Assembly (NCBI GenBank): GCA_030434875.1 | Contig: JAUISW010000001.1 | Location: 1,127,501-1,191,500 of the forward strand | Origin: Lachnospiraceae bacterium C1.1 | GTDB taxonomy: Bacteria; Bacillota; Clostridia; Lachnospirales; Lachnospiraceae | Reading direction: 5' to 3' | Length of the DNA: 64,000 nt | Made by a program: the position numbers and the translations under genes | Notes under the pieces: generated by a model | Told to the model about the DNA's origin: nothing | What the model saw: only the letters and a program-made list of their open reading frames with translations | The model's database searches: none | Shown: positions 9,830 through 53,510 of the stretch, in pieces | Position numbering within the stretch: the first letter of the stretch is position 1 | How the letters are laid out: each line of letters begins with the position of its first letter

Positions 9830-9852
9830 AAGTAGCTTCTCCTATAAACTAA

Positions 9853-13359: not shown

Positions 13360-13961
13360 ATGCTAATAGTTATTGTAACATCGCCATTTGAAAGCAACTC
13401 AGTCATGCCAGCCTCATCCTTATCAGATATGTGACCTAACCGTGTGTATGACCAGCTGTTAGAACCATAGAACACAACCATTTGATTCCCTGAATAAAGA
13501 ACTATATCCCCTGATGATGTTGTCGTCTGTTTGTCATTTCTTGGAAGACTTTGACCTATAGATCCCACCTGCTCAAATCCGCCATACATTGACATCTGAA
13601 TTGTGACATCACCATCTCTGGCCATATCCCGCAATGCTTCTACAGCCTGGTTGTCTTCCCAGTCTACATTAACTTTTGTATCGCCAATCTTCATTATCAT
13701 AGTAGCTTCTCCAATGCTAATATCATCAGAAGAAGAGTCACTCGCAACAGCTTGATTATCAGTTTCTTCTGTTTGATATGTTTCTAAGGCTTCTAATAAT
13801 ATAGTTCCCTCTGTACTTTCTGCTTCTATATCTTCCGATTCAGAAATAACAGCAATCGAATCATGATTTTTATCCATAGCCTCCATATTATCTGAACAGG
13901 CACTAACACAAAACATCATGAACACACTAAGTGCCATTGCAATCATTTTTGCTATCATCAC
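13275..13961 (-). CDS. Cyclophilin-like lipoprotein, C-terminus extended by a MITE
   Basis: A 228-residue protein. MMIAKMIAMALSVFMMFCVSAC is a lipoprotein signal ending in the lipobox VSAC. An acidic Ser-rich linker runs to about residue 80. A cyclophilin-like fold domain follows (residues 85-200: VNVDWEDNQAVEAL, MYGGFEQVG, DIVLYSGNQMVVFYGSNSW), the PF18050-type domain found alone or fused in gut Firmicutes; no isomerase activity is established. The last 27 residues are encoded by the inserted MITE. Removing the element and one target copy would end the protein at TITISMG. It is the last of a minus-strand run with a flavodoxin-like gene 10 bp upstream. Confidence 0.85.
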   Translation of the reverse strand: MMIAKMIAMALSVFMMFCVSACSDNMEAMDKNHDSIAVISESEDIEAESTEGTILLEALETYQTEETDNQAVASDSSSDDISIGEATMIMKIGDTKVNVDWEDNQAVEALRDMARDGDVTIQMSMYGGFEQVGSIGQSLPRNDKQTTTSSGDIVLYSGNQMVVFYGSNSWSYTRLGHISDKDEAGMTELLSNGDVTITISMMSGSKGQNPIVLAQRGLRPWDPQNTSK

Positions 13962-36264: not shown

Positions 36265-36367
36265 TTGACTTTTAATTCAGTTTTGCTATAATGGATTTAG
36301 GCATGACGATGCTATGAATGCTTAAGGCAACAAAAACCCCGGAGATCGCGACTCTCCGGGGTTTTTT
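36265..36367 (+). ncRNA. Probable antitoxin RNA of an Fst/par-like type I system
   Basis: TTGACT (36265-36270), 16 bp, and an extended TGCTATAAT (-10 at 36287-36292) would start an RNA near 36299. It ends at a 9-bp-stem terminator (CCCCGGAGA/TCTCCGGGG, 36332-36367) that also has an A run, so it works in both directions and is shared with the convergent small-toxin mRNA. The RNA carries ACGATGCTATGAATGCTTAA (from 36306), nearly the same as 36479-36498 over the toxin start. The RNA could therefore pair with the toxin's translation-initiation region, as RNA II does at par loci. Confidence 0.65.
36332..36367. terminator. Bidirectional terminator of the type I locus
   Basis: A perfect 9-bp GC-rich stem with a 7-base loop, flanked by five A and six T. 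It serves the antitoxin RNA on the plus strand and the toxin mRNA on the minus strand. Confidence 0.85.
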
Positions 36368-36389
36368 ATTCCGTTTTTGCGAAGGTGGC

Positions 36390-36497
36390 TTATTCCTTAG
36401 GCTTGTTGCCATGATTATCTCTGTCAAGCCATTTGCAGATGTAGTAGGCAGCTACACTTGCCGCAACAGAGATTAAAAACGATGCTATAATGCTCAA
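36390..36497 (-). CDS. Fst-like small membrane toxin (putative)
   Basis: Thirty-five residues from a TTG at 36497, 6 bp after a strong GGGGGTGA site. One hydrophobic helix (SIIASFLISVAASVAAYYIC) is followed by KWLDRDN and a charged, Pro-containing tail. The WLD after the membrane helix is also seen in Fst/Ldr-type toxins. The start region is complementary to the convergent small RNA, and both share a bidirectional terminator. Toxicity is inferred from this arrangement, not shown. Confidence 0.65.
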   Translation of the reverse strand: MSIIASFLISVAASVAAYYICKWLDRDNHGNKPKE

Positions 36498-36716
36498 GAC
36501 TTCACCCCCTTCCCGTGCCCGTGTAGGGAGTGGCAACTTTTGTATTATATAAAAATCTTAAATTCAAATCAAGAAAGTTTTTTCCCACAAACTGTTGAGA
36601 TAATTATAATTATAGTGTACATTCTGAATATAAGGTGATTTACGGTTGTCTTTCTTAACTGGAGGCGAGAATGCAACAGAACAAAATATCTTTCATTTTC
36701 CTTCCTATCTATGACT
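36498..36716. other. Intergenic region with a truncated gene start
   Basis: This holds the toxin's leader and, on the plus strand, a TGGAGGCGAG ribosome site followed by an ATG at about 36671 (MQQNKISFIFLPIYD) whose frame soon runs into the opposite-strand glutaredoxin-like gene. It looks like a gene start cut off by a rearrangement. Confidence 0.3.
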
Positions 36717-40236: not shown

Positions 40237-42182
40237 GTCGAGTAGACAAGGGAGATCTCTCTCCCAAGCCCCCTCACGGATCCGGACATGCGGCTTTCTC
40301 GCATCCGGCTCTTTACGAAATTACTTGACTCCGCTATCTAAATATAGACATAAAAGGTCTTGGGTCTTACGACCGGATGACCATTTGTTATCATGTCATA
40401 GAAACCCGCCCTAGTGTAGCTTCTTTTCTGGCTTCTCCTGTTCAGCCAGTAATACAGGCTGTTCAGTACATTCCATCTGAATTTCATAACTTTCGGGTAG
40501 TTTCCATAAACGCCATAGTAATGGTAATAGCCTACAAGAACTTGGTTAATCCAACGTATGATGTTCACAGTCTTTTCCGTGCGTAACCTACCAATCAAAT
40601 CATGCATAACTTTGCATTTCTTGATAAACTTTTTGCGACTCGTTATCCTCCACACTTTGAACTTTCCGTACTTAGATTTAGAACAGACGTGTGTGAAGCC
40701 CAGGAAATCGAAAGATTCAGGCTTGCCCTCGTTTCTTCGTTTGCGGTTCTGTTCCGCGAAACGTCCAAACTCGATGAGCCTACACTTTTCTTCTGCTAGG
40801 CTGAGTCCGAAGTACGCCATCCTATGTTTCAGTCGCTCGTAGAATTGCTCCGCTTCCCATTTGTATTGGAAGCAGACCACAAAGTCATCGGCATAGTTAA
40901 CGATACCAGCGTAGCCTTTAAGCTGTGTTTTCACTACTTCGTGGAACCACCATAGCAGGATATAGTGCATGTAGATATTTGCCAATATTGGAGAACAGAC
41001 AGAACCTGTCCACTTCCCTGTTCAGTAGGCTCATATCCGCCCATATCCTTGACAACTCTGGCTTTAAGCATCACCTTTACAAGCCTCAGCACTCTTGGGT
41101 CTTTGATTCTTGCCCCTACGAACTTCATCATCCAATCATGGTCGATATTGTCGAAGAACCCTCTGATGTCCGCGTCAAGCACCCAATTTGTACAGTTACC
41201 ACCTATCTGATTATTAAGTAGCTTCAGTGCATCATGACATCCACGATTAGGTCGGAAACCCATCATTTCGTCATAGAAACACGGCTCAAATACCGCCTCT
41301 AATACTCTTTTGATTGCTTCCTGAACCAATTTATCCTCATAGCAATAAATGCTCAGAGGTCTGGTTTTGCCATTGTCTTTAGGTATTTCAACACGCCTTG
41401 CCGGTTTTGGATGATACGCTTTGCGTTTCAACCTGTCCACAAGGTCAAAGAGATTCTTCTCCAAATCTTTGCTGTAGTCATCTTTGGTTACACCGTCGAT
41501 TCCTACCGCTTTCTTCCCATCCATCTTGATGTGACAGTCTGCTAACATTTCAATGTTTATCAAGTGTCCAATGGATGTGAAAACCATGTTTGGGTTTTCT
41601 TTAGATAGCTGCGCTATTCTCTCCAGTTTCGTTGCCATTAGTTACCTACCATCTGAGTGTAGTTAATGTTTCCCCTTTAAGTTTGTTCCGTATGGCTGGA
41701 AAAGGAGGTTACTTTCCCATTCTCGACTTTCCTCCGATGCTTATACCTAATGGATTTCGCATCTTCAAAGGTACTATTCGGCCATCCGACTGCCTGCATG
41801 CCATTTGCCTCGTTTCCTTTCTGGTTACTTTGGCATACCACTTATACATTATTGCCCCACACACTAATCAGAGCTGATATGGAGCAAACAGGCTCTCCCC
41901 ATTCGACGCTGAATAATTGTGCAACATGAACGGGTCTTCCCGACACCGTCGGAGTGTACGTATTCTCACCATAGCGATTACATACATGTTGGCTTCTGCC
42001 CGTGTAACAGCATCGCCTCCAAATTGAGTATTTCGGTGCTCAATGTCCGTCCCTATTGCCTAACTGTCTACGCTTAAACCTAACGTTACCGTTTCGGCTC
42101 CAAGACTCGTTAACGGTGGATTGGTTAATCCTTACCGTATGGGATTTCCACCCATTATCTAAAGCGTCCTACATGAGCGCAC
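40237..42182 (-). mobile_element. Group II intron
   Basis: The minus-strand 5' end is GTGCGCTCATG, fitting the GUGYG consensus. Domain V is recognisable at 40311-40279 (GAGCCGGATGCGAGAAAGCC and a pairing half), followed by a domain VI-like stem and a 3' end near ...CTCGAC (40237). The maturase gene lies between. The intron sits about 20 bp beyond the T run of the terminator at 42202-42235. Exact ends are inferred. The 540 bases 41639-42182 are ribozyme domains without a gene. Confidence 0.8.
40338..41638 (-). pseudogene. ltrA: Intron reverse transcriptase/maturase, split by a frameshift
   Basis: Two overlapping frames together encode a group II intron protein. 41638 to about 41005 gives the finger region (GIDGVTKDDYSKDLEKNLFD, LSIYCYEDKLVQEAIKRVLE, WVLDADIRGFFDNIDHDWMM). 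Then 41004-40338 gives the palm with the catalytic YADD (GIVNYADDFVVCF), thumb and X domain. The joint reads GSGQVLSV where GQGSVCSPILANI is expected, indicating one G missing at about 41005. Unless frameshifting occurs, no complete protein is made and the intron cannot move by itself. Confidence 0.88.
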
Positions 42183-42201: not shown

Positions 42202-42235
42202 AAAAAAAGGGGTATGGCAGTTCAACGCCATACCC
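42202..42235 (-). terminator. Rho-independent terminator of the precursor operon
   Basis: On the minus strand GGGTATGGC and GCCATACCC (42235-42210) form a perfect 9-bp stem followed by C and seven T. It lies 32 bp after the Cys-rich precursor gene and just before the intron. Confidence 0.85.
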
Positions 42236-42266
42236 TCTGTTTATTTATACACGCAGCATCTTTATA

Positions 42267-42587
42267 TCAGTGAGGCACCTGGTTCCACCATACGGGATAG
42301 CCGCATTCTATGCCATTCTGTTCCATGTACTTAATGATATATATTGTATCGGCATCAGAAGCATCTGTTGAATATTTGCAGTGCGAAGGATCGTCACAGG
42401 TCCACATGGAAATCGCTGCATCCCATACCATAGGCTTTCCACAGTAAAAACAGGTTGCTTCATTTGCTCCACCGACTCCGCCTGTTACCTTCTCCATTTC
42501 AGCATCGCTTAATGGTATGTTTTTGGCATTTTCAAGAGCCACCTTCTTGTACTTCTTAATGAGTTCTGCATAATTTTTCTCTGCCAT
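42267..42587 (-). CDS. Double-glycine precursor with Cys-rich, zinc-ribbon-like core
   Basis: A 106-residue protein. Residues 1-37 are a leader ending PLSDAEMEKVTGG, the type cut after Gly-Gly by C39 peptidases. The 69-residue core contains CFYCGKPMVWD, WTCDDPSHCKYS and one more Cys (IECGYP). CxxC plus CxxxxxC spacing suggests a metal-binding knuckle or disulfides rather than a modified peptide. AAGGAGAAAG precedes the ATG. It is the last gene of the operon with DUF3021 and is presumably exported by the C39 ABC transporter encoded 5 kb away. Confidence 0.75.
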   Translation of the reverse strand: MAEKNYAELIKKYKKVALENAKNIPLSDAEMEKVTGGVGGANEATCFYCGKPMVWDAAISMWTCDDPSHCKYSTDASDADTIYIIKYMEQNGIECGYPVWWNQVPH

Positions 42588-42661
42588 AATCTTTCTCCTT
42601 CTGCCCTTTACCAGGCTTAAAAATTGTTGTAAAAGGTTTCATGATCTGTTTTGCTTCTCTG

Positions 42662-42973
42662 TCAGTAATCAATGACACCTGTTATCTGCCATCCATAATA
42701 GCCTCTGATCCTGCTTACCGTTACCTGGTCTCCTACTCCTATATCCGGTATATCTGCTCCTGCAACACCATATATTCCGCCGCTTAATTCAAAAACCCTC
42801 AATCCATCCTTCTGGCAGTCTTCAAAAACGCCTCTGTACATAATGCCTGTCGGAAATGGGTCTACAAATACTATGCCTGTTATTGTGGAGAAATTTGTCC
42901 CGCCGGCGTTTCCTTTTCCACCCGTTGCTTCTACCATTTCTTCTTCTCTGATTTCCATATTGTTATCTGCCAT
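42662..42973 (-). CDS. Double-glycine precursor read from an internal start
   Basis: An ATG at 42973, with GGAGA 7 bp upstream, opens a 103-residue product in the same frame as DUF3021. The leader MADNNMEIREEEMVEATGG ends in Gly-Gly. It is close to the leader of the precursor at 53171. The 84-residue core is Gly/Val/Ile-rich with one Cys and ends GDQVTVSRIRGYYGWQITGV, a beta-strand pair similar to the end of the other precursor (GTRVRCALVGMGRWEIVAF). Internal initiation would release a soluble export substrate. Confidence 0.65.
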   Translation of the reverse strand: MADNNMEIREEEMVEATGGKGNAGGTNFSTITGIVFVDPFPTGIMYRGVFEDCQKDGLRVFELSGGIYGVAGADIPDIGVGDQVTVSRIRGYYGWQITGVIDY

Positions 42974-43435
42974 AATGCTGTCTCCTTTGATTATATAATT
43001 TTCGTTTATTTTTCTGTCCTTCATTTCACTAAGTTCTCTGTTTAAGTCCTCGATTGACCTTTTCCAGATCGTATACTCCATCAGCCATATGAGAGCATAT
43101 ATTACAGTAAATGCTATGATTGCTGCTATCAGCAGTCCACCGTTTCCGAACCAGTGCAGGAAATGGTTAGCTGTAAGGAAAGCTGTAAAGGTTATAAAAT
43201 AATGTGTAAGTGTTGCCTTTGTAAGGCCCCAGTCCTCTATCTCATAGCTTATTGTTCCGCCTATTGCAACAGCCCCGTATATTCCCGAACCTATAAGATT
43301 TATCAGAAACATCTTTCCGCCGGCTGTCAGGAACTTAAGCTCATTCAGGCCTGTCATTATAAAAGCTCCTATTATCATTCCTGCAACAAAGCCAATCAGC
43401 AGTCGGACGATAAGTTTATTTTTAATTTCTTTCAA
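42662..43435 (-). CDS. DUF3021 membrane protein fused in frame to a double-glycine precursor
   Basis: The 257-codon frame starts at a TTG (43435). Residues 1-150 are a DUF3021 protein: four membrane segments (LLIGFVAGMIIGAFIMTG, FLINLIGSGIYGAVAIGG, HYFITFTAFLTANHFLHW, LLIAAIIAFTVIYALIWLME) and a charged tail. DUF3021 genes typically sit beside LytTR regulators, as here. No stop follows; residues 155-257 are a complete precursor with its own ATG and ribosome site (see next entry). The protein could be made as a fusion, separately, or both. Transcription is from the LytTR-type promoter at 43525-43593. Confidence 0.75.
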   Translation of the reverse strand: MKEIKNKLIVRLLIGFVAGMIIGAFIMTGLNELKFLTAGGKMFLINLIGSGIYGAVAIGGTISYEIEDWGLTKATLTHYFITFTAFLTANHFLHWFGNGGLLIAAIIAFTVIYALIWLMEYTIWKRSIEDLNRELSEMKDRKINENYIIKGDSIMADNNMEIREEEMVEATGGKGNAGGTNFSTITGIVFVDPFPTGIMYRGVFEDCQKDGLRVFELSGGIYGVAGADIPDIGVGDQVTVSRIRGYYGWQITGVIDY

Positions 43436-43524
43436 TTCATCTCACCACCTCTATATCTGATTCAGGTTTATGTAATTCAGGTGATCCGGATACCGTTTCT
43501 ATAATTGCTCTTCCTGATGAATTG

Positions 43525-43593
43525 AATATATCAGAAAGGAAAATCCCCAACAATAAATCCTGCGCATTCGGTCATTTTCCCCGCGCATTCGGT
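43525..43593 (-). promoter_or_regulatory. LytTR-type operator/promoter of the DUF3021-precursor operon
   Basis: ACCGAATGCGC occurs twice (43593-43583 and 43572-43562), exactly 21 bp apart. TATATT (43530-43525) starts 42 bp after the proximal repeat's first base. Two direct repeats two helical turns apart, upstream of a -10 with no good -35, is the layout bound by LytTR activators. Confidence 0.7.
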
Positions 43594-43623
43594 TTGCGTT
43601 GATTTCATATCCACAGGTAAGCA

Positions 43624-44094
43624 CTAAAGATTGACTGCCGTCAGCAGTTTCTTCAGGTCTTTTACCCGTCTTCTTGCCACATAGGTGTTTTCTCCATTTT
43701 CAAGCTCAACCCTGATGGTTCCTGCAAGAGAAAAATCAAACTTTTTCACTTTTCTGAGATTGATGGTTTCTGACTGAGAAATCCTTACAAACCTCGCTTT
43801 ATCAAGATTTTCCTCTATTTCATGAAGCGGCTTTCTGATTTCGTAAGTTTTATCCAGCGTTTCTATCATGACCTTTCTATTATGTATATAAAGTCTGATT
43901 ATCCTTCTTTGCGGAACATACTCCATCTCCTCATCGCAATATGCCATTATAGGAGGAAAAGCACTGTCGGAATATGCCTGCACCGCCTTTATGATTGCTT
44001 CAACGTCATCATTGCGCTCCCTGCATTTGATATATACCGTAGTTCTTTCCCAATTCTTTTCAATAAGAAGTTTAATCTCGATTCTGTCCGTCAT
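43624..44094 (-). CDS. LytTR DNA-binding regulator (second)
   Basis: A 156-residue protein from the ATG at 44094. The N-terminal 60 residues are a small alpha/beta region with no receiver domain. The LytTR domain fills residues 60-156 (RRIIRLYIHNRKVMIETLDK, FVRISQSETINLRKVKKFDF, ENGENTYVARRRVKDLKKLL). It is 25 bp downstream of a paralogous LytTR gene, both ahead of the DUF3021-precursor operon. Without a receiver it is not a classic response regulator; activity may be set by the DUF3021 membrane partner. Confidence 0.85.
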   Translation of the reverse strand: MTDRIEIKLLIEKNWERTTVYIKCRERNDDVEAIIKAVQAYSDSAFPPIMAYCDEEMEYVPQRRIIRLYIHNRKVMIETLDKTYEIRKPLHEIEENLDKARFVRISQSETINLRKVKKFDFSLAGTIRVELENGENTYVARRRVKDLKKLLTAVNL

Positions 44095-44119
44095 AGCTTT
44101 CCCTATAATAAAGAGCCTT

Positions 44120-44608
44120 TCATACCGCACCAAAACAGGATTTATTTCTCAGGATATCTTTTATGGGTTTGACATAGCTTCTTGAGGAATAAGTCCTGAC
44201 ACCATTTCCAAATATAACGCATACTGTCCCGGAATTACTAAGATCAAACTCTCTAACTTTGTCGATATTTACGATTTCCGACTGTGATATTCTTAAAAAA
44301 GATTCGGGATTTAATTTTGATTCAACAGCAGAAAGTGTATTCTTGATGATGTAGCTGTCCTCTTCGGTTTTAAGAAGTAGATACCTGCCTTCCGTATGTA
44401 TCCTCACTATGTCTTTTTGATCGACAAACACCATCCCTTCACCATCCGACAGAAATGCCGGAATTGTCGAAATCTCTCGGTCGCCAACCTGTTCTATGGC
44501 ATGAATTATATCTTGTATATGTCGAGTTTTCTGATTGGTTAAGATCGTAATTTTCGGTTCTGTATATTCCTCACTAAAAACCAGCTCAATATCAACTGTT
44601 GATTTCAT
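44120..44608 (-). CDS. LytTR DNA-binding regulator (first)
   Basis: A 162-residue protein from the ATG at 44608 (GGAGAG upstream). It has the same plan as its downstream paralogue: a short N-terminal domain (DIELVFSEEYTEPKITILTN) and a LytTR domain (KDIVRIHTEGRYLLLKTEED, FLRISQSEIVNIDKVREFDL, GVRTYSSRSYVKPIKDIL). The two differ strongly in sequence, so they may bind different sites or form heterodimers. The promoter upstream lacks ACCGAAT repeats, so the pair seems not to be self-regulated through that site. Confidence 0.85.
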   Translation of the reverse strand: MKSTVDIELVFSEEYTEPKITILTNQKTRHIQDIIHAIEQVGDREISTIPAFLSDGEGMVFVDQKDIVRIHTEGRYLLLKTEEDSYIIKNTLSAVESKLNPESFLRISQSEIVNIDKVREFDLSNSGTVCVIFGNGVRTYSSRSYVKPIKDILRNKSCFGAV

Positions 44609-44752
44609 ATACACTCTCCTCTCAATTTCAATCACTTTGAACTGTTCAGAATTTATCCGCCATTTTCTCTGATATTAGTGCAAATTTCTGATAATAATTC
44701 AATTTTACGTTTTTTATTTTTCAATTTCAACAAATATACCCTTTGTACTAAA

Positions 44753-44806
44753 CAAAAGCCATAGGTTCATGTTCCTCATTAGAAACAATGAATCTATGGC
44801 TTTTTG
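44753..44806. terminator. Strong bidirectional hairpin terminator
   Basis: AAAAGCCATAG... pairs with CTATGGCTTTTT over about 17 bp around a 15-base loop. It separates the exporter operon (ending with the STAS gene) from the LytTR operon. Confidence 0.8.
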
Positions 44807-44869
44807 ATTTCAGGTCTTCCCGTAAGACTCTTAAAGTTTTTTCAAATGGCTTAAGCAAATGACATTGAT

Positions 44870-45169
44870 TCACTCAATTTTTATCATGTTTTTAAAGCCT
44901 GTGACTTCAAACACCTCAAGCACGCTATCCGAAACATTCTTAACAGACGTATTCCCACCCTTTTCTTCCACATATTCTATAACCCAATACAAAATACGCA
45001 GTCCTGCCGAGGATATATATTCAAGACCTTCAAAATCAAAATATATACTCGTTACCTCTTCGGGCAGTTCATTCATTTTATCATCAAGATTCATGGCACT
45101 AAGAGTATCAAGCTTCCCCTTAACTCCTATAAACAGCTCATTTCCTTTTATTTCCCAAGTCATTTCCAT
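44870..45169 (-). CDS. STAS-domain protein (anti-sigma-factor-antagonist type)
   Basis: A 99-residue single ST AS domain protein from the ATG at 45169 (AAGGAG upstream). FEGLEYISSAGLRILYWVIE contains the Ser54 that is phosphorylated in SpoIIAA/RsbV-type antagonists. It is the last gene of the exporter operon, 13 bp after the second ABC gene. Its likely partner is the SpoIIE-type phosphatase encoded divergently at 50213. The usual kinase/anti-sigma protein is not in the window. Confidence 0.88.
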   Translation of the reverse strand: MEMTWEIKGNELFIGVKGKLDTLSAMNLDDKMNELPEEVTSIYFDFEGLEYISSAGLRILYWVIEYVEEKGGNTSVKNVSDSVLEVFEVTGFKNMIKIE

Positions 45170-45182
45170 AGTATCCTGCTCC

Positions 45183-47360
45183 TTATAAGATCTGCCGTTT
45201 AACAAGCTCCGAAAAATATCCTCCTTTTTCAATCAGTTCCTCATACTTCCCGTCCTCAACCACATGTCCTGCATCAAAAACAAGTATCCTGTCGCACTGC
45301 CTTATGGTAGACAGTCTGTGTGCAACGACTATCCTGGTACAGTTCATGGCATCAAGCGCCTCCGAGACTTTTCTTTGTGTAATATTATCAAGAGCAGAGG
45401 TTGCTTCATCAAATATCAGTAGTTTAGGCTTCGGCGCAACAGCTCTCGCTATCATAAGCCTCTGCTTCTGTCCTCCGGAGATTCCACCGCTGCCCTCCGA
45501 AATTATCGTATTCATTCCCATGGGCATCCGCCGGATATCCTCATCAATTCCGGCGATCCTCGCAGCTTCCCATGCATCATCCACTGTAAGATACGGGGCA
45601 GAGATCACTATATTTGAATAAATATCTCCTTGGAAAAGCTTCCCGTTCTGCGTAACGACGCCAATATGCTTTCGTAATGATTTCAGATCTATTGAATTTA
45701 TATCTTTTCCATCATAAAAAATTGTACCCTTAACCGGCTTCTCAAAGCCGAGAAGAAGCCGTACAAGCGTGGATTTGCCGCAGCCCGTCTTCCCCACTAT
45801 TGCAATATACTGCCCGGAATTTATCCTTAAGGACAGATTGTCAATTATCAGGGGTGTGTTCTCACCATAACTGAAAGTCAGATTTACAAGCTCTATCCCG
45901 CCCGATATCTTTGTGAGAATTTCTTTATTTTCTGAAATTTCAGGAACAGCCTTCAGTATCGGTTCAGCCATTTCAAATGTAGGCCTTATCCTTGCCGCAG
46001 TCAGGGCAACGCTGAACAGGGACATAAATGCACCCGATACCATTCCGTATGCTGTATTAAAGGCGAAATATTCAGCGGCGGATACGTGCGTCACTATTGC
46101 CTGATTGTACATGACTATGGTTCCCGTAAGAGATATTGCAAGACTTATGACAGAATTAATCTTGATAAATGCTGGTGGATTATAGCTAATCTCCGCTTCT
46201 TCAGCATACAGACTTCCCCATCTGGAAAATGCTCTTTTTTCCGCTCCTGAAAGCTTTATCTTCTGGATTCCCGATATCAAAGCATAGCTCATGCCATTTT
46301 CTTTTGAAGCAATGAGCATCTGCCTTTTGTTTAATTTCATCTGTATGAGCGATGTTGCTATCGAAAAACTGACCGTTGCCAATATGATCGCAAACGCCGG
46401 AAAAACAAGCCCCGGTGCATAAATTAAAATCTGTCCCAAATAAACGAGTGAAAATACGGAACTGAGTGCCGTATTCAAAACTACCGAAACCAGCGTTGAG
46501 CAGAGAGAATTTACATGAGATGCCCTTGAAGACAATTCTCCCGACCCATACTCCCTGAAAAAGCCTGCCGGCAGTGACAATATCCTCATCATTGTTGCGG
46601 CTTCTACGGCCACACTCATTTTGGTGTCGATCCTTGCCGAAATCAGATTCTTCACCGAGGACATCAGCAAAGACCCCCAGGATACCGAAAGAAGAAAAAC
46701 CATTGTAATCACCAGAAGAGATATACTCCCGCTGTTTACAAGATCCCTGAATATAAAGAGATTTATCCTCGGCACAAGCATTCCAAGCAGTGTTACGGTC
46801 ATTGTTGCAAGAATTATCATTATATAATCCCGAGGTTCGATAACACCAAGCATATACTCGGCAAGGTTTCTGATTCCGAGTTTTTTTAACGGAAATGATT
46901 TGTAAAAAGCATAGGCTTCTTTTTCAAACAGCTCTTCTGAATTTTTATCAACTTTCTCATATATTCCTTTTTCATCATCAAAGTATCTGTATCCGAAAAG
47001 TCCTGACGGAATCAGTGCAGTCGGAGTCCCGTTTAGTTTTCTGAATGCAAGGAAAACTCCCGAAGCATCCTTTCGCCAGAGCGGTGTCAGTTCTACCTGC
47101 CTGTACATTATCCCGGAGGTATGAAATACATAGTCGAGCTTTTCTTCTATCAGGCTTATTTTTGAAGGAATCTCTTTCTTGGGAAGATGATAATACTTTG
47201 CAATATCCTCTATGGCATTCTCCGCTTTTTCTTTTTCGTCCACAGCGGAATATGCCCTTCTTTCGCCGGTTACAGCTGAAGCCATCTTCCGAAAGGTTCT
47301 TTCAAAATTTTCCTCGTCATTCTTTTTTCTTAATTTTATCTGACTGTCAAACCAACCCAT
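45183..47360 (-). CDS. NHLM-type exporter, ABC transporter without peptidase (ABC2)
   Basis: A 725-residue half-transporter. The N-terminal 165 residues lack the C39 Cys/His/Asp and correspond to the degenerate cap of NHLM ABC2 proteins. Six membrane helices span about 175-430. The ATPase has Walker A GKTGCGKSTLVRLLLG, signature SGGISGGQKQRL and Walker B LLIFDEATSALDN. It starts 6 bp after the C39 ABC gene and presumably forms a heterodimer with it. It also sits directly upstream of the STAS gene. Confidence 0.9.
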   Translation of the reverse strand: MGWFDSQIKLRKKNDEENFERTFRKMASAVTGERRAYSAVDEKEKAENAIEDIAKYYHLPKKEIPSKISLIEEKLDYVFHTSGIMYRQVELTPLWRKDASGVFLAFRKLNGTPTALIPSGLFGYRYFDDEKGIYEKVDKNSEELFEKEAYAFYKSFPLKKLGIRNLAEYMLGVIEPRDYIMIILATMTVTLLGMLVPRINLFIFRDLVNSGSISLLVITMVFLLSVSWGSLLMSSVKNLISARIDTKMSVAVEAATMMRILSLPAGFFREYGSGELSSRASHVNSLCSTLVSVVLNTALSSVFSLVYLGQILIYAPGLVFPAFAIILATVSFSIATSLIQMKLNKRQMLIASKENGMSYALISGIQKIKLSGAEKRAFSRWGSLYAEEAEISYNPPAFIKINSVISLAISLTGTIVMYNQAIVTHVSAAEYFAFNTAYGMVSGAFMSLFSVALTAARIRPTFEMAEPILKAVPEISENKEILTKISGGIELVNLTFSYGENTPLIIDNLSLRINSGQYIAIVGKTGCGKSTLVRLLLGFEKPVKGTIFYDGKDINSIDLKSLRKHIGVVTQNGKLFQGDIYSNIVISAPYLTVDDAWEAARIAGIDEDIRRMPMGMNTIISEGSGGISGGQKQRLMIARAVAPKPKLLIFDEATSALDNITQRKVSEALDAMNCTRIVVAHRLSTIRQCDRILVFDAGHVVEDGKYEELIEKGGYFSELVKRQIL

Positions 47361-47366
47361 ATTATT

Positions 47367-49547
47367 CTACTCACTTTGTACAAGCTCTTTATAGTAGCCG
47401 CCTTTTGCATAAAGTTCTTCATGCTTTCCTCTGTCAACAACCTTTCCTTCTTTCAGAACTATTATTTCATCACAATCCCTTATAGTAGAAAGCCTGTGTG
47501 CAATAAATATACAGGTTATTCCCCTGTCCTTCAGAGAGTTTACGACATCAAATTCCGTTTTTGCATCAAGCGCCGAAGTTGCCTCATCGAGGATTACTAT
47601 TGTCGGATCTTCCGCCAGCACACGTGCTATTTCCATTCTTTGTCTCTGTCCGCCGGAGAAATCCTTACCTCCCTCAAGCATTCTGTGGTCATAACCGCTG
47701 CTTCTTTCCATGATATCTTCATGTATCATGGCATCTCTTGCAGCCGCTATCACTTCAAAATCCTTTATGGATTCATCCCACATCTTGATATTAGAAGCAA
47801 TGCTGTCCTCAAACATAATGATATCCTGATCAACTACGGCAAGCGAGCCTGTGAAAACGTTTCTGTCTATATCCTTCATGGGCTGTCCGTCAAAAAATAT
47901 CTCTCCCTCCCACGGTCTGTAGAGTCCGGATAAAAGCTTTGAAAGTGTAGACTTTCCACATCCGCTCTCCCCGACGAATGCAACTCTGCTTCCCGGCTCC
48001 AGCTTAAGTGAGAAGTCCTTAATAAGCGGTTCGGCAAGACGGGAATATCCGAAGCTTACATTTTTCATTTCCACTGCTCCGCGAAGTTTTTTATAATGTT
48101 CCTTCCCTGATTTCTCTCCTCTGGCTCCGCTGTTGTCATCCGGATACTGCATGACATCCTCTATACGTTCCATATCCGTCCTTAATTCCTGAATGGACTG
48201 CCCTGCGGAAATAAAAGTTCCTGCCGGTGCCGTAAAAGATGAGAGAAAACCCTGAAATGCGGTGATCATACCCAGTGTAAACTCCCCATTGAGCACGAGA
48301 TGCACGCTTATCGCCAGCACAAGTGTTGAAGTTAAGGAAGAAACGAGTCCGGGCAAAATCCCTAAATATTGATTGATAAGCGTAAATTTCACTTTCTGGC
48401 TGTTTACACTCGCCTGATATCCTGCCCATTTTTGGAAAAAACCGTCCTCAGCTCCACTTGCCTTTATGGTCTCTATCATTTCAATTCCGGATATCGTACA
48501 CCCTGATAATTTTCCCGCATCCCTCATCTGTATACGTGATACATTTATCCTGTGTTTCGATATTATCCTCGAAATGAACATATTTACAACTATTGATGAT
48601 ATGCCTATCATTGTCAGGAGCACGCTGTTTTTAAGCATCACCACGAGGTAAAAGATCATCATGAAGCAGTTCAGTGCCAGCGGCGCAAAAGTCTGTATAA
48701 GAGAATTTGAAATCGAGGCATTTCCCGCCCTTCTCGACAAAATATCCCCTGCATATCTCTGAGAAAAGAAATCCATAGGAAGATTCATGACTTTCCACAT
48801 ATAAGAACTTGTGCCGTAAACAGCCATCTTGCCCTCTATTCTTCTCGAATATATTACCCTGATAAGCTCTGAGACAATCTGAATTAATGCAAAAAAAGAC
48901 ATAACAGCTATAAAGGGAATATGCCATTCAGGATTCTTAGTCGTTAAAAGCCTGTCTATAAAGATTCTTGAAAAAACAGGATTTATAACCCCAATAAGTG
49001 ATGCGATAATATGTGTCAGTATCACAAAGACAATCGCAGCACCGCAACCCCTAAGCCTTTTTTTCGCAAATTCAACGGTAGACCTCTGCTTTCCTCCGGT
49101 CTCAAAGTTTTCACCCGGGGCAAAGAGGATGCAAAGACCCGTAAATTTTTCATCAAACTCCTTCAATGATACGCTGACTGTTCCCCTTGCGGGATCGTTC
49201 AGCGAAACCCTGTCTTTCCCGAAACCATTTACAACTACAAAATGATTAAAATCCCAGTGAGCGATGCATGGAAAAGTGCCATTTTCTTTCAGATAATCGG
49301 GTTCATAACGATAGCCTTTTGCCTCAAGTCCGTAATTTCTTGCCGCCCGCATGACATTAAGAGCATTAGAACCGTCCCTCGATACTCCGCAGTCACGTCT
49401 GACCTGCTCTAAAGGAATCCATTTTTCATAATACGCAAGTATCATGGCAAGGGCTGCAGCCCCGCATTCAAGTGCCTCCATCTGCATTATGAATGGCACT
49501 TTGGCAATTTTTCCGCTTAGTGGCTTTTTTGTTTTTTTATTATTCAT
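47367..49547 (-). CDS. NHLM-type exporter, C39 peptidase/ABC transporter (ABC1)
   Basis: A 726-residue peptidase-containing ABC transporter. The C39 domain (residues 1-150) has the catalytic Cys28 in MEALECGAAALAMILAYY, His in IAHWDFNHFVVV and Asp in SLNDPARG. Six membrane helices follow, then an ATPase with GESGCGKSTLSKLLSGL, FSGGQRQRMEIARVL and IVILDEATSALDAKTEF. It should cut precursors after the Gly-Gly leader while exporting them. It overlaps the secretion-protein gene by 4 bp and is followed by ABC2. Confidence 0.92.
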   Translation of the reverse strand: MNNKKTKKPLSGKIAKVPFIMQMEALECGAAALAMILAYYEKWIPLEQVRRDCGVSRDGSNALNVMRAARNYGLEAKGYRYEPDYLKENGTFPCIAHWDFNHFVVVNGFGKDRVSLNDPARGTVSVSLKEFDEKFTGLCILFAPGENFETGGKQRSTVEFAKKRLRGCGAAIVFVILTHIIASLIGVINPVFSRIFIDRLLTTKNPEWHIPFIAVMSFFALIQIVSELIRVIYSRRIEGKMAVYGTSSYMWKVMNLPMDFFSQRYAGDILSRRAGNASISNSLIQTFAPLALNCFMMIFYLVVMLKNSVLLTMIGISSIVVNMFISRIISKHRINVSRIQMRDAGKLSGCTISGIEMIETIKASGAEDGFFQKWAGYQASVNSQKVKFTLINQYLGILPGLVSSLTSTLVLAISVHLVLNGEFTLGMITAFQGFLSSFTAPAGTFISAGQSIQELRTDMERIEDVMQYPDDNSGARGEKSGKEHYKKLRGAVEMKNVSFGYSRLAEPLIKDFSLKLEPGSRVAFVGESGCGKSTLSKLLSGLYRPWEGEIFFDGQPMKDIDRNVFTGSLAVVDQDIIMFEDSIASNIKMWDESIKDFEVIAAARDAMIHEDIMERSSGYDHRMLEGGKDFSGGQRQRMEIARVLAEDPTIVILDEATSALDAKTEFDVVNSLKDRGITCIFIAHRLSTIRDCDEIIVLKEGKVVDRGKHEELYAKGGYYKELVQSE

Positions 49548-50044
49548 TGTTTTCCGAATATAAATGAAAGTGGTGAAATTTTCTCAGTTACTATCAATGC
49601 CTCATAAATCCCCTCCCGCAGATCCGGGTGGTATTCAGCAACAGTTACCTCATAAACCCACTCTCCGTTCTTCATATCTGCAAGAAACATCGCATATGAG
49701 TCAAAGTCCTCCCCTATCTGAATTGGTTTTGAAGAATTCAAAAAAGCGGGATATTCCCTTTCCCCTATTTTCAGATACATTTCATCAGTAAATTTATCAC
49801 TGTAATCTTTTTTTATATAACAGATAACCCGCTCTCCGTCGGATATACAGACTCCCGGTACCGTTGAATCTATATGCCCTACCGCACCGAATATACACGC
49901 TCCTGCAAGAATAATTACCAAAGCTCCAAGCACAAGCCATATCCCTATGTTATTAAGTCTTATATAATCATTCAGCTGTTCCGGTGATGAAATCCTCTTA
50001 ATGGATTTTTCTCTGAAAATGGTATTATTTTCCAAACTTATCAC
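49544..50044 (-). CDS. Short NHLM-type secretion protein (HlyD-like adaptor)
   Basis: A 166-residue protein. The start IFREKSIKRISSPEQLNDYI and the single membrane helix (IWLVLGALVIILAGACIFGA) match the N-terminus of NHLM secretion proteins. It ends with a beta-rich domain (GVCISDGERVICYIKKDYSD, YEVTVAEYHPDLREGIYEAL). The long coiled-coil hairpin of ordinary HlyD adaptors, which would cross the periplasm, is missing, as expected in a Gram-positive with one membrane. It is first in the exporter operon. Confidence 0.8.
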   Translation of the reverse strand: MISLENNTIFREKSIKRISSPEQLNDYIRLNNIGIWLVLGALVIILAGACIFGAVGHIDSTVPGVCISDGERVICYIKKDYSDKFTDEMYLKIGEREYPAFLNSSKPIQIGEDFDSYAMFLADMKNGEWVYEVTVAEYHPDLREGIYEALIVTEKISPLSFIFGKQ

Positions 50045-50060
50045 CCCCTGTTTCTCTTAC

Positions 50061-50128
50061 ATAGTATCAAAAAGCAGCTTCACTTTTACTCTTTTTGTTT
50101 ATTCCGTCGTTTTTCATGTCTATTCGGT
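50061..50128 (-). promoter_or_regulatory. LytTR-type operator/promoter of the exporter operon
   Basis: ACCGAAT (50128-50122) and ACGGAAT (50107-50101) are 21 bp apart. TACTAT (50066-50061) starts 41 bp after the first base of the proximal repeat. This is the same geometry as at 43525-43593 and 52266-52334. Confidence 0.6.
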
Positions 50129-50212
50129 AATCCGTCATGAAAACTTTCGAAATAAATTGTGCTATCATAGGTATATGATGATGTAATGTTACAGGTCATG
50201 TGAGGAACCGCT

Positions 50213-52261
50213 ATGATTATAATGATTTTAAAAATGCTTTCTATTATTGCAGTTCACGTTCTGCTTACGGTTTTTCTCTGGAAAAAAAATCAGTCTAAAG
50301 TCATGGGTATGTCTCAAAAGCTCATGATCGGATTTATATACGGTCTCTTTGCCATCTTCTCGAACCATTTCGGAGTTGTCTACGAACACAGTATCTTAAA
50401 TATCAGAGATTTAAGTCCGCTTACCGCCGGTCTCCTTTTTGACCCGCTTTCCGGTATCATTGCAGGATTTATAGGCGGAATTGAACGATATATAATCGGG
50501 AGGTACTTTAATATCGGCTATTACACACACGCCGCCTGCAGCATTGCCACAATAACCTCCGGATTTCTTGCGGCATTTCTTAACTGCTTTCTTCTCAGAG
50601 GAAAGAAACCTTCTGCTGCTTATGCTTTCTTTATCGGCGCGGTTATGGAAGTTTTTCATATGTACGAAATATTTCTGACCCACAGACGTGACATGCTTAA
50701 TGCTCTCTCAGCCATTAAAAACAATTCTGCTCCCATGATATTTTTTACTGCTTTCGGACTTATGGCAGAGATCATGATACTGCGCTTTTATGCTGGGGAA
50801 TGGACTACCCCCTTCAAAAAGATTCCAAAGGAAAATATCGAAATATCGAAGAAATTCAACTTTTGGCTCTCAACCGCTACCTTATCCGTATTATTTTTTA
50901 CCTTTATTTTTTCCTTCATGATACGGACACAGACGGCGATAGAGATTGCCCGCAATACATTGCGAAGATCGCTTCTCGATATCACGACACAGCACAGACA
51001 CTTTCAGAACGATAAAGCCCTCCTCGGCTCCATAGACATTCATGTTGGTTCAAGCGGGTCTTTTGACATTATAAGGGATGACCTCTTTGTCGCAGGTGCT
51101 CATAATACTCTGCCGGTTTCTCAGAAAATCAGGGATATAATTGAGCTGCATGAGGATAACAACTTTTTTAGAGTCGAATATTTCGACACTGACTCATTCT
51201 GCGTGATAAAGCACCTTGATAACGGTGACATAGTTTTTCTCACACTTCCTCTCAAAGAAATCTACAATAACAGAGACACAATGGCCTATGAAACAATTTT
51301 TGCAAATATCATTACAATGGCTGTTTTGTTTATGCTGGTTTCCTTGCTTGTACAAAATATCATTGTAAAGAATCTTTCACAGGTCAACAGTTCTCTAAGG
51401 AAGATCGCGGACGGCAATCTGCAGGAGGAAGTCTCGGTGTATGAATCAACGGAATTTGCTACCCTCTCAGAAGACATCAACAGTATGGTCAGTACGCTTA
51501 AAGGTTATATAGAAGCTGCCGAGAAAAGGATCCGGCAGGAGCTCCTCTTTGCAAAGACCGTACAGGAATCATCAATCCCCAGAAATTTCAGATTTGACAG
51601 AACTGACTTTGAAATTTACGCTTCCATGAAACCAGCAAAACAGGTAGGCGGTGATTTCTATGATTTTTTCTTTATAGGACAGGACAGACTTGTTCTGGTA
51701 ATTGCAGATGTCTCAGGAAAGGGGATTCCGGCCGCACTTTTCATGATGAAAAGTAAAGCCGCACTCCGTTCGCTGGCAGGAGAAGGCAATTCTCCCGCCG
51801 AAGTCATGAATAAGCTGAATTTAACTCTTGCCGAGGACAACAGGGTTAAAATGTTCGTAACTGTATGGCTCGGTATCATTGACCTGAAAACAGGAATCAT
51901 GAAATGCTCAAATGCCGGTCATGAATATCCCCTGCTCAAGCGAAAAAATACCGGTTATGAATATTATAAAGATTCGCACAATCTTGTACTTGGACTAAGG
52001 AAAAAAATTAATTTCACTGATTATGAAATAAGGCTTGAAAGCGGTGACGACATTTTCATATATACAGACGGCATACCTGAGTCTTTTAACGGTGAGGATG
52101 AAGTATATGGTTTTGAACGATTGAAAAATGTCCTGACTCTTAATAGTGATAAAAGCGCGAAAGAAATAGTTGAAAATCTTGTTTCAGATCTTGATGATTT
52201 CGTAGGAAATGCTGAACAGTTTGATGACACAACAATGCTTGTTTTTAAATATAAAGCATAA
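50213..52261 (+). CDS. Membrane-bound SpoIIE-type serine phosphatase with LytS-like 5TM sensor
   Basis: A 682-residue protein. Residues 1-190 are a five- to six-helix 5TMR_LYT-like module (NIRDLSPLTAGLLFDPLSGI, GIERYIIGRYFNIGYYTHAA). A second membrane-anchored extracytoplasmic segment (215-370) follows, then a HAMP linker (VNSSLRKIADGNLQEEV) and coiled coil. The PP2C/SpoIIE domain (440-682) has GGDFYDFF, DVSGKGIPAALFMMKSKAAL, SNAGHEYPLL, YTDGIPESF and DDTTMLVF, giving complete Mn/Mg sites. It probably dephosphorylates the STAS protein in response to an outside or membrane signal. It diverges from the exporter operon. Confidence 0.9.
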   Translation: MIIMILKMLSIIAVHVLLTVFLWKKNQSKVMGMSQKLMIGFIYGLFAIFSNHFGVVYEHSILNIRDLSPLTAGLLFDPLSGIIAGFIGGIERYIIGRYFNIGYYTHAACSIATITSGFLAAFLNCFLLRGKKPSAAYAFFIGAVMEVFHMYEIFLTHRRDMLNALSAIKNNSAPMIFFTAFGLMAEIMILRFYAGEWTTPFKKIPKENIEISKKFNFWLSTATLSVLFFTFIFSFMIRTQTAIEIARNTLRRSLLDITTQHRHFQNDKALLGSIDIHVGSSGSFDIIRDDLFVAGAHNTLPVSQKIRDIIELHEDNNFFRVEYFDTDSFCVIKHLDNGDIVFLTLPLKEIYNNRDTMAYETIFANIITMAVLFMLVSLLVQNIIVKNLSQVNSSLRKIADGNLQEEVSVYESTEFATLSEDINSMVSTLKGYIEAAEKRIRQELLFAKTVQESSIPRNFRFDRTDFEIYASMKPAKQVGGDFYDFFFIGQDRLVLVIADVSGKGIPAALFMMKSKAALRSLAGEGNSPAEVMNKLNLTLAEDNRVKMFVTVWLGIIDLKTGIMKCSNAGHEYPLLKRKNTGYEYYKDSHNLVLGLRKKINFTDYEIRLESGDDIFIYTDGIPESFNGEDEVYGFERLKNVLTLNSDKSAKEIVENLVSDLDDFVGNAEQFDDTTMLVFKYKA

Positions 52262-52265
52262 TTTT

Positions 52266-52334
52266 ACCGACTACGCATATATTTCTACCGAATGGACACA
52301 ATTGATTGAAAGGGATTTTTTCTGCTGCTATATT
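52266..52334 (+). promoter_or_regulatory. LytTR-type operator/promoter of the DUF975-precursor operon
   Basis: TACCGACTACG and TACCGAATGGA (ACC at 52266 and 52287) are 21 bp apart. TATATT (52329-52334) starts exactly 42 bp after the proximal A, as at 43525-43593. Confidence 0.7.
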
Positions 52335-52423
52335 ATTATCATAAAGCGAAAGCCAATCATCAATTCAGCAAAGATTGATTGATACACCTGTAGATGCAGA
52401 TGAATTGCAAGGAGGTAATTACA

Positions 52424-53119
52424 ATGTGGACGAGGGCCGAAGTTAAGACAAAAGGAAAAGAAGCTTTTAAGGGTAATTATTGGATGTGTGTTTTGACTGC
52501 TTTTATCATTTCAATAATTTCAGGCGCTTCTGCTGCCCCCGGGCAGACAGGTACTATAAGAAACCTCAACAACATGCTTAAAGACGACGGAGGCATGCTT
52601 TCGGTTATAATAGCTTTTATTGCTTCTGTCATAGTTATATTTTCCATCGTTTGGACCCTGCTTAAGATTTTTGCAATAAATCCGGTATACATGGGATGCA
52701 GATGTTTCTTCAAGGAAAATCTTTCAAAAAAACTGACTTCCCCCGACCTTACGGAAAGCATAAAAAAATCATTTACCGGAAATTATGGCCGAAATATTCT
52801 CTGTCTCTTTCTTAAAGATTTGTTTCTCGGCCTCTGGTTTTGCCTCTTCATTATTCCGGGGATAATTAAATGCTATTCCTATAAGATGGTTCCCTATATT
52901 CTTTACGACCACCCGGAACTATCCGCAACAGAGGCAATTACCTATTCGAGAAAAATGATGGGCGGTCACAAGTGGAGCGCTTTTGTCCTTGATCTTTCCT
53001 TTATCGGCTGGGGACTGCTAAGCCTTATCACCGGCGGATTGGTTGGTCTTTTCTGGACAAATCCCTATATGATGAGCACTGAAGCTGCACTTTATGAAAA
53101 GCTCAAAATGATGCAGTGA
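52424..53119 (+). CDS. DUF975-family membrane protein
   Basis: A 231-residue protein from the ATG at 52424 (AAGGAGG upstream; an earlier in-frame ATG at 52394 lies before that site). RAEVKTKGKEAFKGNYWMCV is the conserved DUF975 start. Five or so hydrophobic segments follow, with YKMVPYILYDHPELSATEAI and SRKMMGGHKW characteristic of the family. Function is unknown; it may help fold, sense or protect against the secreted product. It is co-transcribed with the precursor gene 51 bp downstream. Confidence 0.85.
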   Translation: MWTRAEVKTKGKEAFKGNYWMCVLTAFIISIISGASAAPGQTGTIRNLNNMLKDDGGMLSVIIAFIASVIVIFSIVWTLLKIFAINPVYMGCRCFFKENLSKKLTSPDLTESIKKSFTGNYGRNILCLFLKDLFLGLWFCLFIIPGIIKCYSYKMVPYILYDHPELSATEAITYSRKMMGGHKWSAFVLDLSFIGWGLLSLITGGLVGLFWTNPYMMSTEAALYEKLKMMQ

Positions 53120-53170
53120 TCAAATAAATCAAAGAAACAATTATAGACAACAAGAACAGGAGGAACGAAA

Positions 53171-53461
53171 ATGGCTGATAATAAGAATGTTGAACTCAAC
53201 GAAGAAATGATGGCAAATGCAGCAGGTGGAAACGCACTTGTCGATGCGGTGAATCTCCTTTCCGAAGGAAAGTATCGTACAGAGGATGGGATAATTACAA
53301 GTGCCCGTGAGCATGATGGTTGGTGGAACGTATCAACAGATCAGCATCCCCAGGGAATTGCAGCTTATTATTTCGCTTATGGAAAATTGTTGGAGCCCGG
53401 CACCCGTGTAAGATGTGCCCTCGTAGGAATGGGAAGATGGGAGATTGTTGCTTTTCTTTAA
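53171..53461 (+). CDS. Double-glycine precursor protein
   Basis: A 96-residue protein preceded by AGGAGG. The leader MADNKNVELNEEMMANAAGG (residues 1-20) resembles that of the precursor at 42973. The 76-residue core (NALVDAVNLLSEGKYRTEDG, WWNVSTDQHPQGIAAYYFAY, TRVRCALVGMGRWEIVAFL) has one Cys, many aromatics and a strand-rich end. It does not look like a lanthipeptide or thiopeptide core, so it is likely exported as a small folded protein. A terminator follows directly. Confidence 0.78.
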   Translation: MADNKNVELNEEMMANAAGGNALVDAVNLLSEGKYRTEDGIITSAREHDGWWNVSTDQHPQGIAAYYFAYGKLLEPGTRVRCALVGMGRWEIVAFL

Positions 53462-53469
53462 CAGTCTGA

Positions 53470-53510
53470 AAAACAAATAGGAGGGGATTCCCCCTCCTAT
53501 TTGTTTTTTC
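53470..53510 (+). terminator. Rho-independent terminator
   Basis: AACAAATAGGAGGGG and CCCCTCCTATTTGTT form a perfect 15-bp stem followed by six T, right after the precursor gene. Confidence 0.92.

Follow-up and report, generated by a model that had tools for sequence, protein, structure and literature searches.

A LytTR-type direct repeat common to three promoters of an NHLM-type exporter island in a Lachnospiraceae bacterium

The window analyzed here, a stretch of 64,000 nucleotides of Lachnospiraceae bacterium C1.1 (bases 1127501-1191500 of contig 1; genome 4.23 Mb), harbors an island of genes for a putative system that exports small Gly-Gly proteins (Table 1). On the minus strand, from position 50044 down to 42267, lie the genes for a short HlyD-like protein, an ATP-binding cassette (ABC) transporter with a C39 peptidase (ABC1), a second ABC transporter (ABC2), a STAS protein, two LytTR regulators (a and b), DUF3021 joined to the Gly-Gly protein pre2, and the Gly-Gly protein pre1. 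Divergent to the exporter operon, the genes for a SpoIIE-type phosphatase, DUF975 and the Gly-Gly protein pre3 follow on the plus strand, upward from 50213. All of the genes named in an earlier, sequence-only reading of this DNA (the exporter trio, three Gly-Gly proteins, the LytTR pair, DUF3021, DUF975, STAS and SpoIIE) are present. The gene caller found no additional genes between 42267 and 53461, and hence no modification enzyme gene was called. That reading would have been refuted by a failure of the genes to co-occur in other genomes; the set recurs there, whole or in part, and is thus beyond chance. The nearest relative among the fetched loci is that of the metagenome-assembled Lachnospiraceae bacterium RUI497 (L041), the ABC1 of which is 98% identical.

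Table 1. Features of the exporter island, in window coordinates
Feature	Position	Strand	Evidence or remark
Short HlyD-like membrane protein, 166 aa, exporter operon gene 1	49544..50044	-	TIGR03794 N-terminal 53 positions, 24.5 bits
ABC1: C39 peptidase-permease-ATPase	47367..49547	-	TIGR03796 924.7 bits; Peptidase_C39 1e-34
ABC2: permease-ATPase without C39 domain	45183..47360	-	TIGR03797 704.1 bits
STAS-domain protein, 99 aa, 13 nt 3' of ABC2	44870..45169	-	STAS 2.7e-12
LytTR regulator a, without receiver domain	44120..44608	-	LytTR 1.3e-23; start from gene caller
LytTR regulator b, without receiver domain	43624..44094	-	LytTR 2.5e-20
LytTR box (43566-43593, 0 mismatches) + TTGTTG-17-TATATT, before DUF3021-pre2-pre1	43525..43593	-	
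DUF3021 membrane protein (predicted LytTR inhibitor)	42974..43435	-	DUF3021 2e-19
pre2: Gly-Gly protein, 103 aa, inside DUF3021 open frame	42662..42973	-	Separate ATG with its ribosome-binding site
pre1: Gly-Gly protein of 106 aa; core zinc-ribbon-like, with four Cys	42267..42587	-	30-row alignment
Terminator after pre1	42210-42235	-	
LytTR box (50101-50128, 1 mismatch) + GTAAAA-17-TACTAT, before exporter operon	50061..50128	-	
Membrane SpoIIE-type phosphatase	50213..52261	+	SpoIIE 1.2e-50, 5TM-5TMR_LYT 5e-26, HAMP
LytTR box (52266-52293, 1 mismatch) + TTGAAA-17-TATATT, before DUF975-pre3	52266..52334	+	
DUF975 membrane protein	52424..53119	+	DUF975 8.3e-30; start 52424 chosen by ribosome-binding site
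pre3: Gly-Gly protein of 96 aa; core probably an IF-1-like OB fold	53171..53461	+	

What is new here is one LytTR-type direct repeat that is common to three promoters of the island. The repeat, ACCGAAT-N14-ACCGAAT with a period of 21, was first spotted by eye and stands upstream of all three transcription units. With at most one mismatch, this box occurs in the window exactly three times, once per transcription unit and oriented with transcription. When three mismatches are permitted there are seven matches, against a mean of 4.87 in shuffled sequences (24 of 100 shuffles reach seven), and because this count resembles that of the shuffles, only the near-perfect matches carry weight. The -35/-10 pairs, also read by eye, start at distances of 10, 9 and 10 bases from the end of the 9-base repeat, with the -35 elements TTGTTG, GTAAAA and TTGAAA in that order. 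According to the available sections of the paper on LytTR Regulatory Systems (PMC6193735), the targets of such systems carry repeats of 9 bp that are in most cases separated by 12 bp and strongly tend to lie 10 bp upstream of the -35 element. The three promoters fit this layout, for which about 9 bp per copy, 11-13 bp between the copies and a distance of about 10 bp to the -35 were allowed, and the two receiver-less LytTR proteins (50 of 165 aligned residues identical) adjoin the membrane protein DUF3021, as in these systems. The LytTR control that the sequence-only reading had proposed is thus supported by shared promoter boxes; the box sequences can be read directly in the DNA, and LytTR is predicted to bind them.

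The box recurs in the relatives of the island. In a tree of 88 ABC1 proteins, computed by a quick method with support from the Shimodaira-Hasegawa-like approximate likelihood ratio test (SH-aLRT) and no bootstrap, the ABC1 of the window falls within an 18-member clade (SH-aLRT 100). Across 21 related loci, 41 matches to the box were counted versus one to the reversed pattern. The 18 clade loci account for 38 matches (reversed pattern, one), 35 of them with a -10 element in place, and the matches are spread over 15 of the 18 loci. By contrast, 82 NHLM-type loci outside the clade yielded nine matches (one with a -10) versus 16 for the reversed pattern (four with a -10); the single control match with a -10, in L063, was attributed to chance in view of the four such matches of the reversed pattern. 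Pairs of ACCGAAT are spaced by 21 bases 27 times, and the next commonest spacings occur four times. A longer form of the box, searched in 15 clade genomes, gave 72 matches in 14 of them versus two for the reversed pattern. The box precedes LytTR-DUF3021 in three relatives (L053, L207 and L224) and LytTR in three others (L052, L179 and L220).

The genes behind the boxes comprise LytTR-DUF3021 pairs, exporter operons, sets of response regulator, HPt and hybrid kinase, DUF3592 proteins, ABC-2 type exporters, small membrane proteins and large secreted proteins, with Gly-Gly proteins the commonest. At 26 of 67 distinct boxed sites, a Gly-Gly gene is present in the following run, and 36 distinct Gly-Gly open frames were collected, a few of them cut by contig ends. 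Since most of these sites were fetched for carrying the box, the tally describes the regulon and is no test of it. The large proteins (up to 1,155 residues, some cut by the fetched DNA), which were seen behind the box in L184, L185, L198, L218 and L221, have N-termini that by eye resemble signal peptides. Proteins of 54-71 residues that look like two-helix membrane proteins are found behind the box, mostly near Gly-Gly genes, in L187, L196, L204, L206, L219 and L220; they are candidate immunity or accessory proteins. In L041, some 730 bp (9778-10509) that carry a boxed DUF3592 gene stand between STAS and LytTR a; they are missing at the corresponding window junction, 44832/44833.

The exporter itself is of the NHLM type, as the sequence-only reading had stated: ABC1 exceeds the cut-off of the NHLM model TIGR03796 (924.7 versus 853.3 bits), keeps the catalytic Cys/His/Asp motifs of the peptidase together with the ATPase motifs, and its C39 domain matches the solved structure 6mpz (3.2e-66). 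ABC2 lies just under the cut-off of TIGR03797 (704.1 versus 709.4 bits, residues 67-724). The HlyD-like protein is far below that of TIGR03794 (24.5 versus 156.2 bits) and matches only positions 1-53 of 421. The same reading had listed this short protein among the parts of the gene set; the form is ordinary and does not distinguish the island: among the fetched NHLM-type loci, 67 of 73 HlyD-like genes adjoining ABC1 genes encode fewer than 250 residues (median 160), and homologues of the short protein exist in 40 of 56 clustered loci, the window included. A second NHLM-type ABC1-ABC2 pair (L009, C1:1081949-1086257, in the region G000:C1:1076000-1095000) is present in the same genome, flanked by genes for a D-alanyl-D-alanine carboxypeptidase-like protein and an N-acetylmuramoyl-L-alanine amidase. 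No match to HlyD, STAS, SpoIIE or the box was found at that locus, nor was a Gly-Gly gene seen alongside, and on the lack of box, HlyD, STAS and SpoIIE matches it was set aside as a part of the island's system.

Gly-Gly leaders carry hydrophobic residues at -12, -7 and -4, and pre1, pre2 and pre3 fit this pattern; each combines such a leader with a small core, as in class II bacteriocins. No stop codon separates DUF3021 from pre2, and the two share a single open reading frame (42662-43435, 257 residues). Because pre2 has its own ATG and a ribosome-binding site (AAAGGAGA, 7 nt upstream), it can also start internally; free pre2 is the probable product, possibly accompanied by some DUF3021-pre2 fusion. 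The joined frame exists also in L041, whereas other relatives have a separate DUF3021 gene of up to 165 residues. The alignment of pre1 (30 rows, selected by similarity) has 22 invariant columns, four of them Cys. Its AlphaFold model (mean predicted local distance difference test score, pLDDT, 75.4) resembles a zinc ribbon plus a helix; Foldseek gave no match below 0.001, and a profile search of the PDB gave weak matches, the best to a designed zinc-finger protein (0.012), followed by zinc-ribbon ribosomal proteins from 0.073. The four-cysteine pattern of the pre1 core is zinc-ribbon-like. The predicted structure of pre3 is a small barrel (mean pLDDT 66.4; blocks within the core at about 68-79), and an oligonucleotide/oligosaccharide-binding (OB) fold of the type of initiation factor IF-1 is likely, not proven, because the quality of the model is moderate; the infA model, run against the own genome at E 0.1, did not match pre3. 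Over 33 cargo proteins, Pfam and NCBIfam revealed no common family; isolated weak matches included Spin/Ssty (0.00048), eIF-1a (0.012) and infA (0.12). The core is of 58-76 residues in 31 of the 36 Gly-Gly proteins and lacks cysteine in 19.

These features bear on what the cargo might be. The cargo could be class II-type bacteriocins; the island would then be an antimicrobial weapon, with immunity conferred by DUF975 or by other membrane proteins and with a LytTR switch of the bacteriocin type. We take this possibility seriously and nevertheless hold it to be doubtful. Gly-Gly leaders, a C39 exporter and LytTR/DUF3021 control are hallmarks of bacteriocin loci, LytTR Regulatory Systems govern bacteriocins in S. 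mutans as described in the available part of PMC6193735, and small membrane proteins and ABC-2 exporters stand behind the same boxes in relatives, as expected of immunity genes; two of the 33 cargo proteins also match the bacteriocin signal model TIGR01847 weakly (best 0.045). However, most of the cores are 58-76 residues long, the two that were modelled resemble a small barrel in one case and a zinc ribbon with a helix in the other and do not look like membrane-active helices, the strong conservation of pre1 among rows selected by similarity is unlike that of arms-race toxins, and phosphorelay genes and large secreted proteins are likewise found behind boxes.

The usual NHLM pathway for ribosomally synthesized and post-translationally modified peptides (RiPPs), with the modifying enzyme encoded elsewhere, appears very improbable. 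It would agree with the score of ABC1 over the NHLM model, since in the available text of PMC2887384 NHLM exporters accompany NHLP or Nif11 precursors and enzymes, and with two minor matches, namely that of pre1 to a leader model of RiPPs modified by radical SAM enzymes (TIGR04149, 14.9 bits and thus below the cut-off of 25) and a boxed run in L207 that ends with a short RiPP-like precursor of 58 residues. Yet the leaders of pre1-pre3 are short and gave no NHLP or Nif11 match in the profile search, none of the 33 cargo proteins matched these in the listed families, no modification enzyme is among the called island genes, and more than half of the cores lack cysteine altogether. With no precursor match over a cut-off and no enzyme in the island, the NHLP/Nif11 or RiPP interpretation was set aside. 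The earlier description of the cargo as small Gly-Gly proteins without modification was in this respect upheld, the unmodified state being predicted from the lack of an enzyme gene.

The SpoIIE-type phosphatase is composed of a LytS-like receptor with five transmembrane segments, a HAMP domain and a PPM domain with the motifs GGDF, DVSGKG, YTDG and DDTT. The phospho-acceptor Ser of STAS is kept in the window, and Ser is found in 25 of 25 STAS proteins of fewer than 130 residues called in the loci (near copies included). Within the 18 clade loci, STAS was found in 11 and SpoIIE in 10, which supports an association of both with the exporter among these relatives. To that extent the switch envisaged by the sequence-only reading is supported; its completeness in the window is not, as the island is without a HATPase kinase. 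In relatives, HATPase follows STAS directly (L042 and L043), SpoIIE fused to HATPase comes after STAS (L046), or the order is box-STAS-DUF3021-HlyD-ABC1-ABC2-SpoIIE::HATPase (L049, L050 and L052); in the window, L041 and L044, STAS and SpoIIE are present and no kinase gene was seen. Among 49 NHLM loci in 40 genomes, drawn from 397 genomes of the family and inspected to a distance of 10 kb, SpoIIE is near the exporter in nine versus 1.55 expected (about 6-fold; Poisson tail 3.6e-5), and HATPase_c_2 in nine versus 1.15 expected (about 8-fold; 3.4e-6); the window is among the nine SpoIIE loci and not among the nine HATPase loci. Mapped onto the tree of ABC1 proteins, the presence of any switch gene at up to 10 kb requires 20 changes, with a shuffled mean of 26.7 and 0 of 500 shuffles as low; this label rests on mechanical, incomplete gene calls (its table misses STAS of L049, L050 and L052, found by tblastn, SpoIIE of L053, L072 and L111, and HATPase beside the L099 exporter). 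Well supported branches force at least 11 changes. From the 20 changes it follows that the link between exporter and switch was gained or lost many times.

Two targets of STAS may be considered, namely a distant kinase and the exporter itself, in the way that MlaB acts on MlaF. In the first case, STAS and SpoIIE would form an ordinary partner switch acting on the HATPase kinase of the cell and on a distant regulator, and their proximity to the exporter would mean co-expression only. At E 1e-6, a single HATPase_c_2 match was obtained in the genome (C1:337325, about 835 kb from the island); it adjoins an RsbV-like STAS gene with no sigma gene seen next to it. The majority of NHLM loci, moreover, are without a neighboring switch gene. 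On the other hand, the kinase is located in the exporter locus of several clade members, behind STAS or fused to SpoIIE, and both SpoIIE and HATPase are enriched around NHLM exporters, so that we judge an ordinary switch to be conceivable, with the odds somewhat against it. In the second case, unphosphorylated STAS would gate the exporter directly by binding the nucleotide-binding domain of the ABC protein, and SpoIIE and a kinase would set the gate. The position of STAS, 13 nt after ABC2 and in or beside the exporter operons of relatives, argues for this, as do the lack of a sigma factor in the island and the phospho-Ser in 25 of 25 proteins. However, MlaB consists of a minimal STAS fold, the Mla system transports lipids, and the STAS protein of the island scores as an anti-sigma antagonist (TIGR00377, 65.7 bits versus a cut-off of 53.45) and not as MlaB (27.1 bits versus a cut-off of 90); direct gating seems unlikely to us.

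The interpretation that we favor, with a probability of roughly 70%, is that the island is a closed, LytTR-driven regulon that makes and exports small, probably unmodified folded proteins and has a partner switch attached. DUF3021 would hold LytTR inactive until a signal arrives, as the available sections of the LytTR paper suggest (PMC6193735). Released LytTR would then bind the ACCGAAT-N14-ACCGAAT boxes and turn on three promoters, so that the exporter, STAS, DUF3021 and the three cargo proteins, all of which lie behind the boxes, would be produced together, and DUF3021, being under its own box, may limit the response. To judge from their families, ABC1 would cut after Gly-Gly and export the cores with ABC2 and the short HlyD protein; because no island gene encodes a modification enzyme, the cores probably leave unmodified. 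STAS would be made with the exporter, and SpoIIE, which would sense an outside signal via its LytS-like receptor, probably sets the phosphorylation of STAS and thereby provides a second, fast control of output. The exported proteins may have an antimicrobial, signalling or surface role. A more far-reaching version is speculative and, in our estimation, distinctly improbable: in a regulon of OB-fold (IF-1-like) and zinc-ribbon mini-proteins, SpoIIE/STAS, with or without HATPase, would act post-translationally on the ABC exporter, the membrane receptor phosphatase quickly opening and shutting it, LytTR-DUF3021 would set the amount, and DUF3021 would, in the lineage of the window, perhaps be fused to cleavable cargo so that the Gly-Gly cut reports exporter activity to the regulator.

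Several results tell against the favored regulon. A HATPase kinase gene was not found in the island, and neither STAS nor SpoIIE was seen in six of the 18 clade loci: of these, L045 has 10 kb available on both sides, and L047, L048, L051, L054 and L058 have under 3 kb on one side. SpoIIE and HATPase are each within 10 kb of just nine of the 49 NHLM loci, and most NHLM exporters are therefore without such a neighbor. The box is absent from the available DNA of three of the 18 clade loci (L048, L051 and L054); in the genome search, which covered L051 and L054, the L054 genome has boxes elsewhere and the L051 genome has none. At two mismatches or fewer, the own genome contains 32 matches to the box versus 29 to the reversed pattern, and the case for the box therefore rests on its placement and on the relatives. 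Thirty of the 32 genomic sites were viewed in context: 26 are inside called open frames, and the four outside are the three island boxes and L172 (two mismatches, 437 bp before an open frame of 44 residues), so that in this genome the regulon appears to be limited to the island. Finally, no ACCGAAT box precedes the LytTR pair in the window, where only an imperfect AAATTGAA repeat of a different sequence, with a period of 22, was found upstream of LytTR a, so that autoregulation would be hypothetical here. This imperfect direct repeat (AAATTGAAA/AAATTGAAT, about 44691-44730, minus strand) is possibly the box of the other LytTR protein.

The individual pieces of the island are known from other systems. 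It resembles the NHLM/NHLP exporter (TIGR03794/96/97; PMC2887384, available sections) in the C39-peptidase ABC1, the paired ABC2, the HlyD-like gene and the Gly-Gly cargo, but has a short HlyD (common in the Clostridia sampled), precursors that are neither NHLP nor Nif11 and no RiPP enzyme, and adds LytTR-boxed promoters and STAS/SpoIIE. With LytTR Regulatory Systems such as HdrRM and BrsRM, as far as described in the available part of PMC6193735, it shares a receiver-less LytTR with a membrane protein (DUF3021 is named there as the membrane partner for S. aureus), bacteriocin-type targets, and direct repeats of 9 bp, 12 apart and about 10 bp before the -35. It differs in having two LytTR genes, a dedicated exporter among the boxed targets and the link to SpoIIE/STAS, and in that the box in the window precedes DUF3021 and not LytTR. 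The Rsb and SpoIIA partner switches likewise combine a SpoIIE-type phosphatase with a phospho-Ser STAS protein, and a HATPase kinase exists in some relatives of the island, whereas the island set is encoded with an exporter and without a sigma factor or kinase. Small Gly-Gly proteins with a C39 transporter and a function other than killing are found in EbfG1-4/PteB of Synechococcus elongatus, in which EbfG1-4 serve biofilm formation; that system is cyanobacterial, and the available part of the report contains no LytTR box or SpoIIE/STAS (PMC4997328). MlaB-MlaF is a precedent for a STAS protein acting on an ABC transporter, in that case one of lipids, and the available text suggests such control for other ABC transporters as well (PMC7367683); contact between STAS and ABC in the island is hypothetical.

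A search of the open-licence PubMed Central (PMC) literature gave no description of this gene combination; as far as that search goes, the union of the pieces under one conserved box, together with cargo of probable barrel fold and an exporter operon that includes genes of a partner switch, is not described. In the available main text of a survey of bacteriocins in rumen isolates, neither LytTR nor SpoIIE is mentioned (PMC13289728). With the box, a loose list of neighbors becomes a regulon that can be tested and that is recognizable from its DNA sequence. It locates cargo genes genome-wide in this clade of Lachnospiraceae, where Gly-Gly proteins otherwise blend with noise, and predicts which cargo genes are co-expressed with a given exporter. 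The recurrent association of partner switches with NHLM exporters points to a possible post-translational control of peptide export.

Directly beyond the pre1 terminator, a group II intron (Rfam RF02005 and RF00029) occupies 40237-42148 on the minus strand of the window; its reverse transcriptase is split over two overlapping frames (234 and 215 residues) and thus appears broken. L041 diverges at the intron site, and the intron was not found in the available L041 DNA. Elsewhere in the window, the minus strand matches two Rfam families, Clostridiales-1 RNA at 13204-13360 (124.5 bits) and the Streptococcus sRNA SpF66 at 36321-36537 (45.4 bits, cut-off 42).

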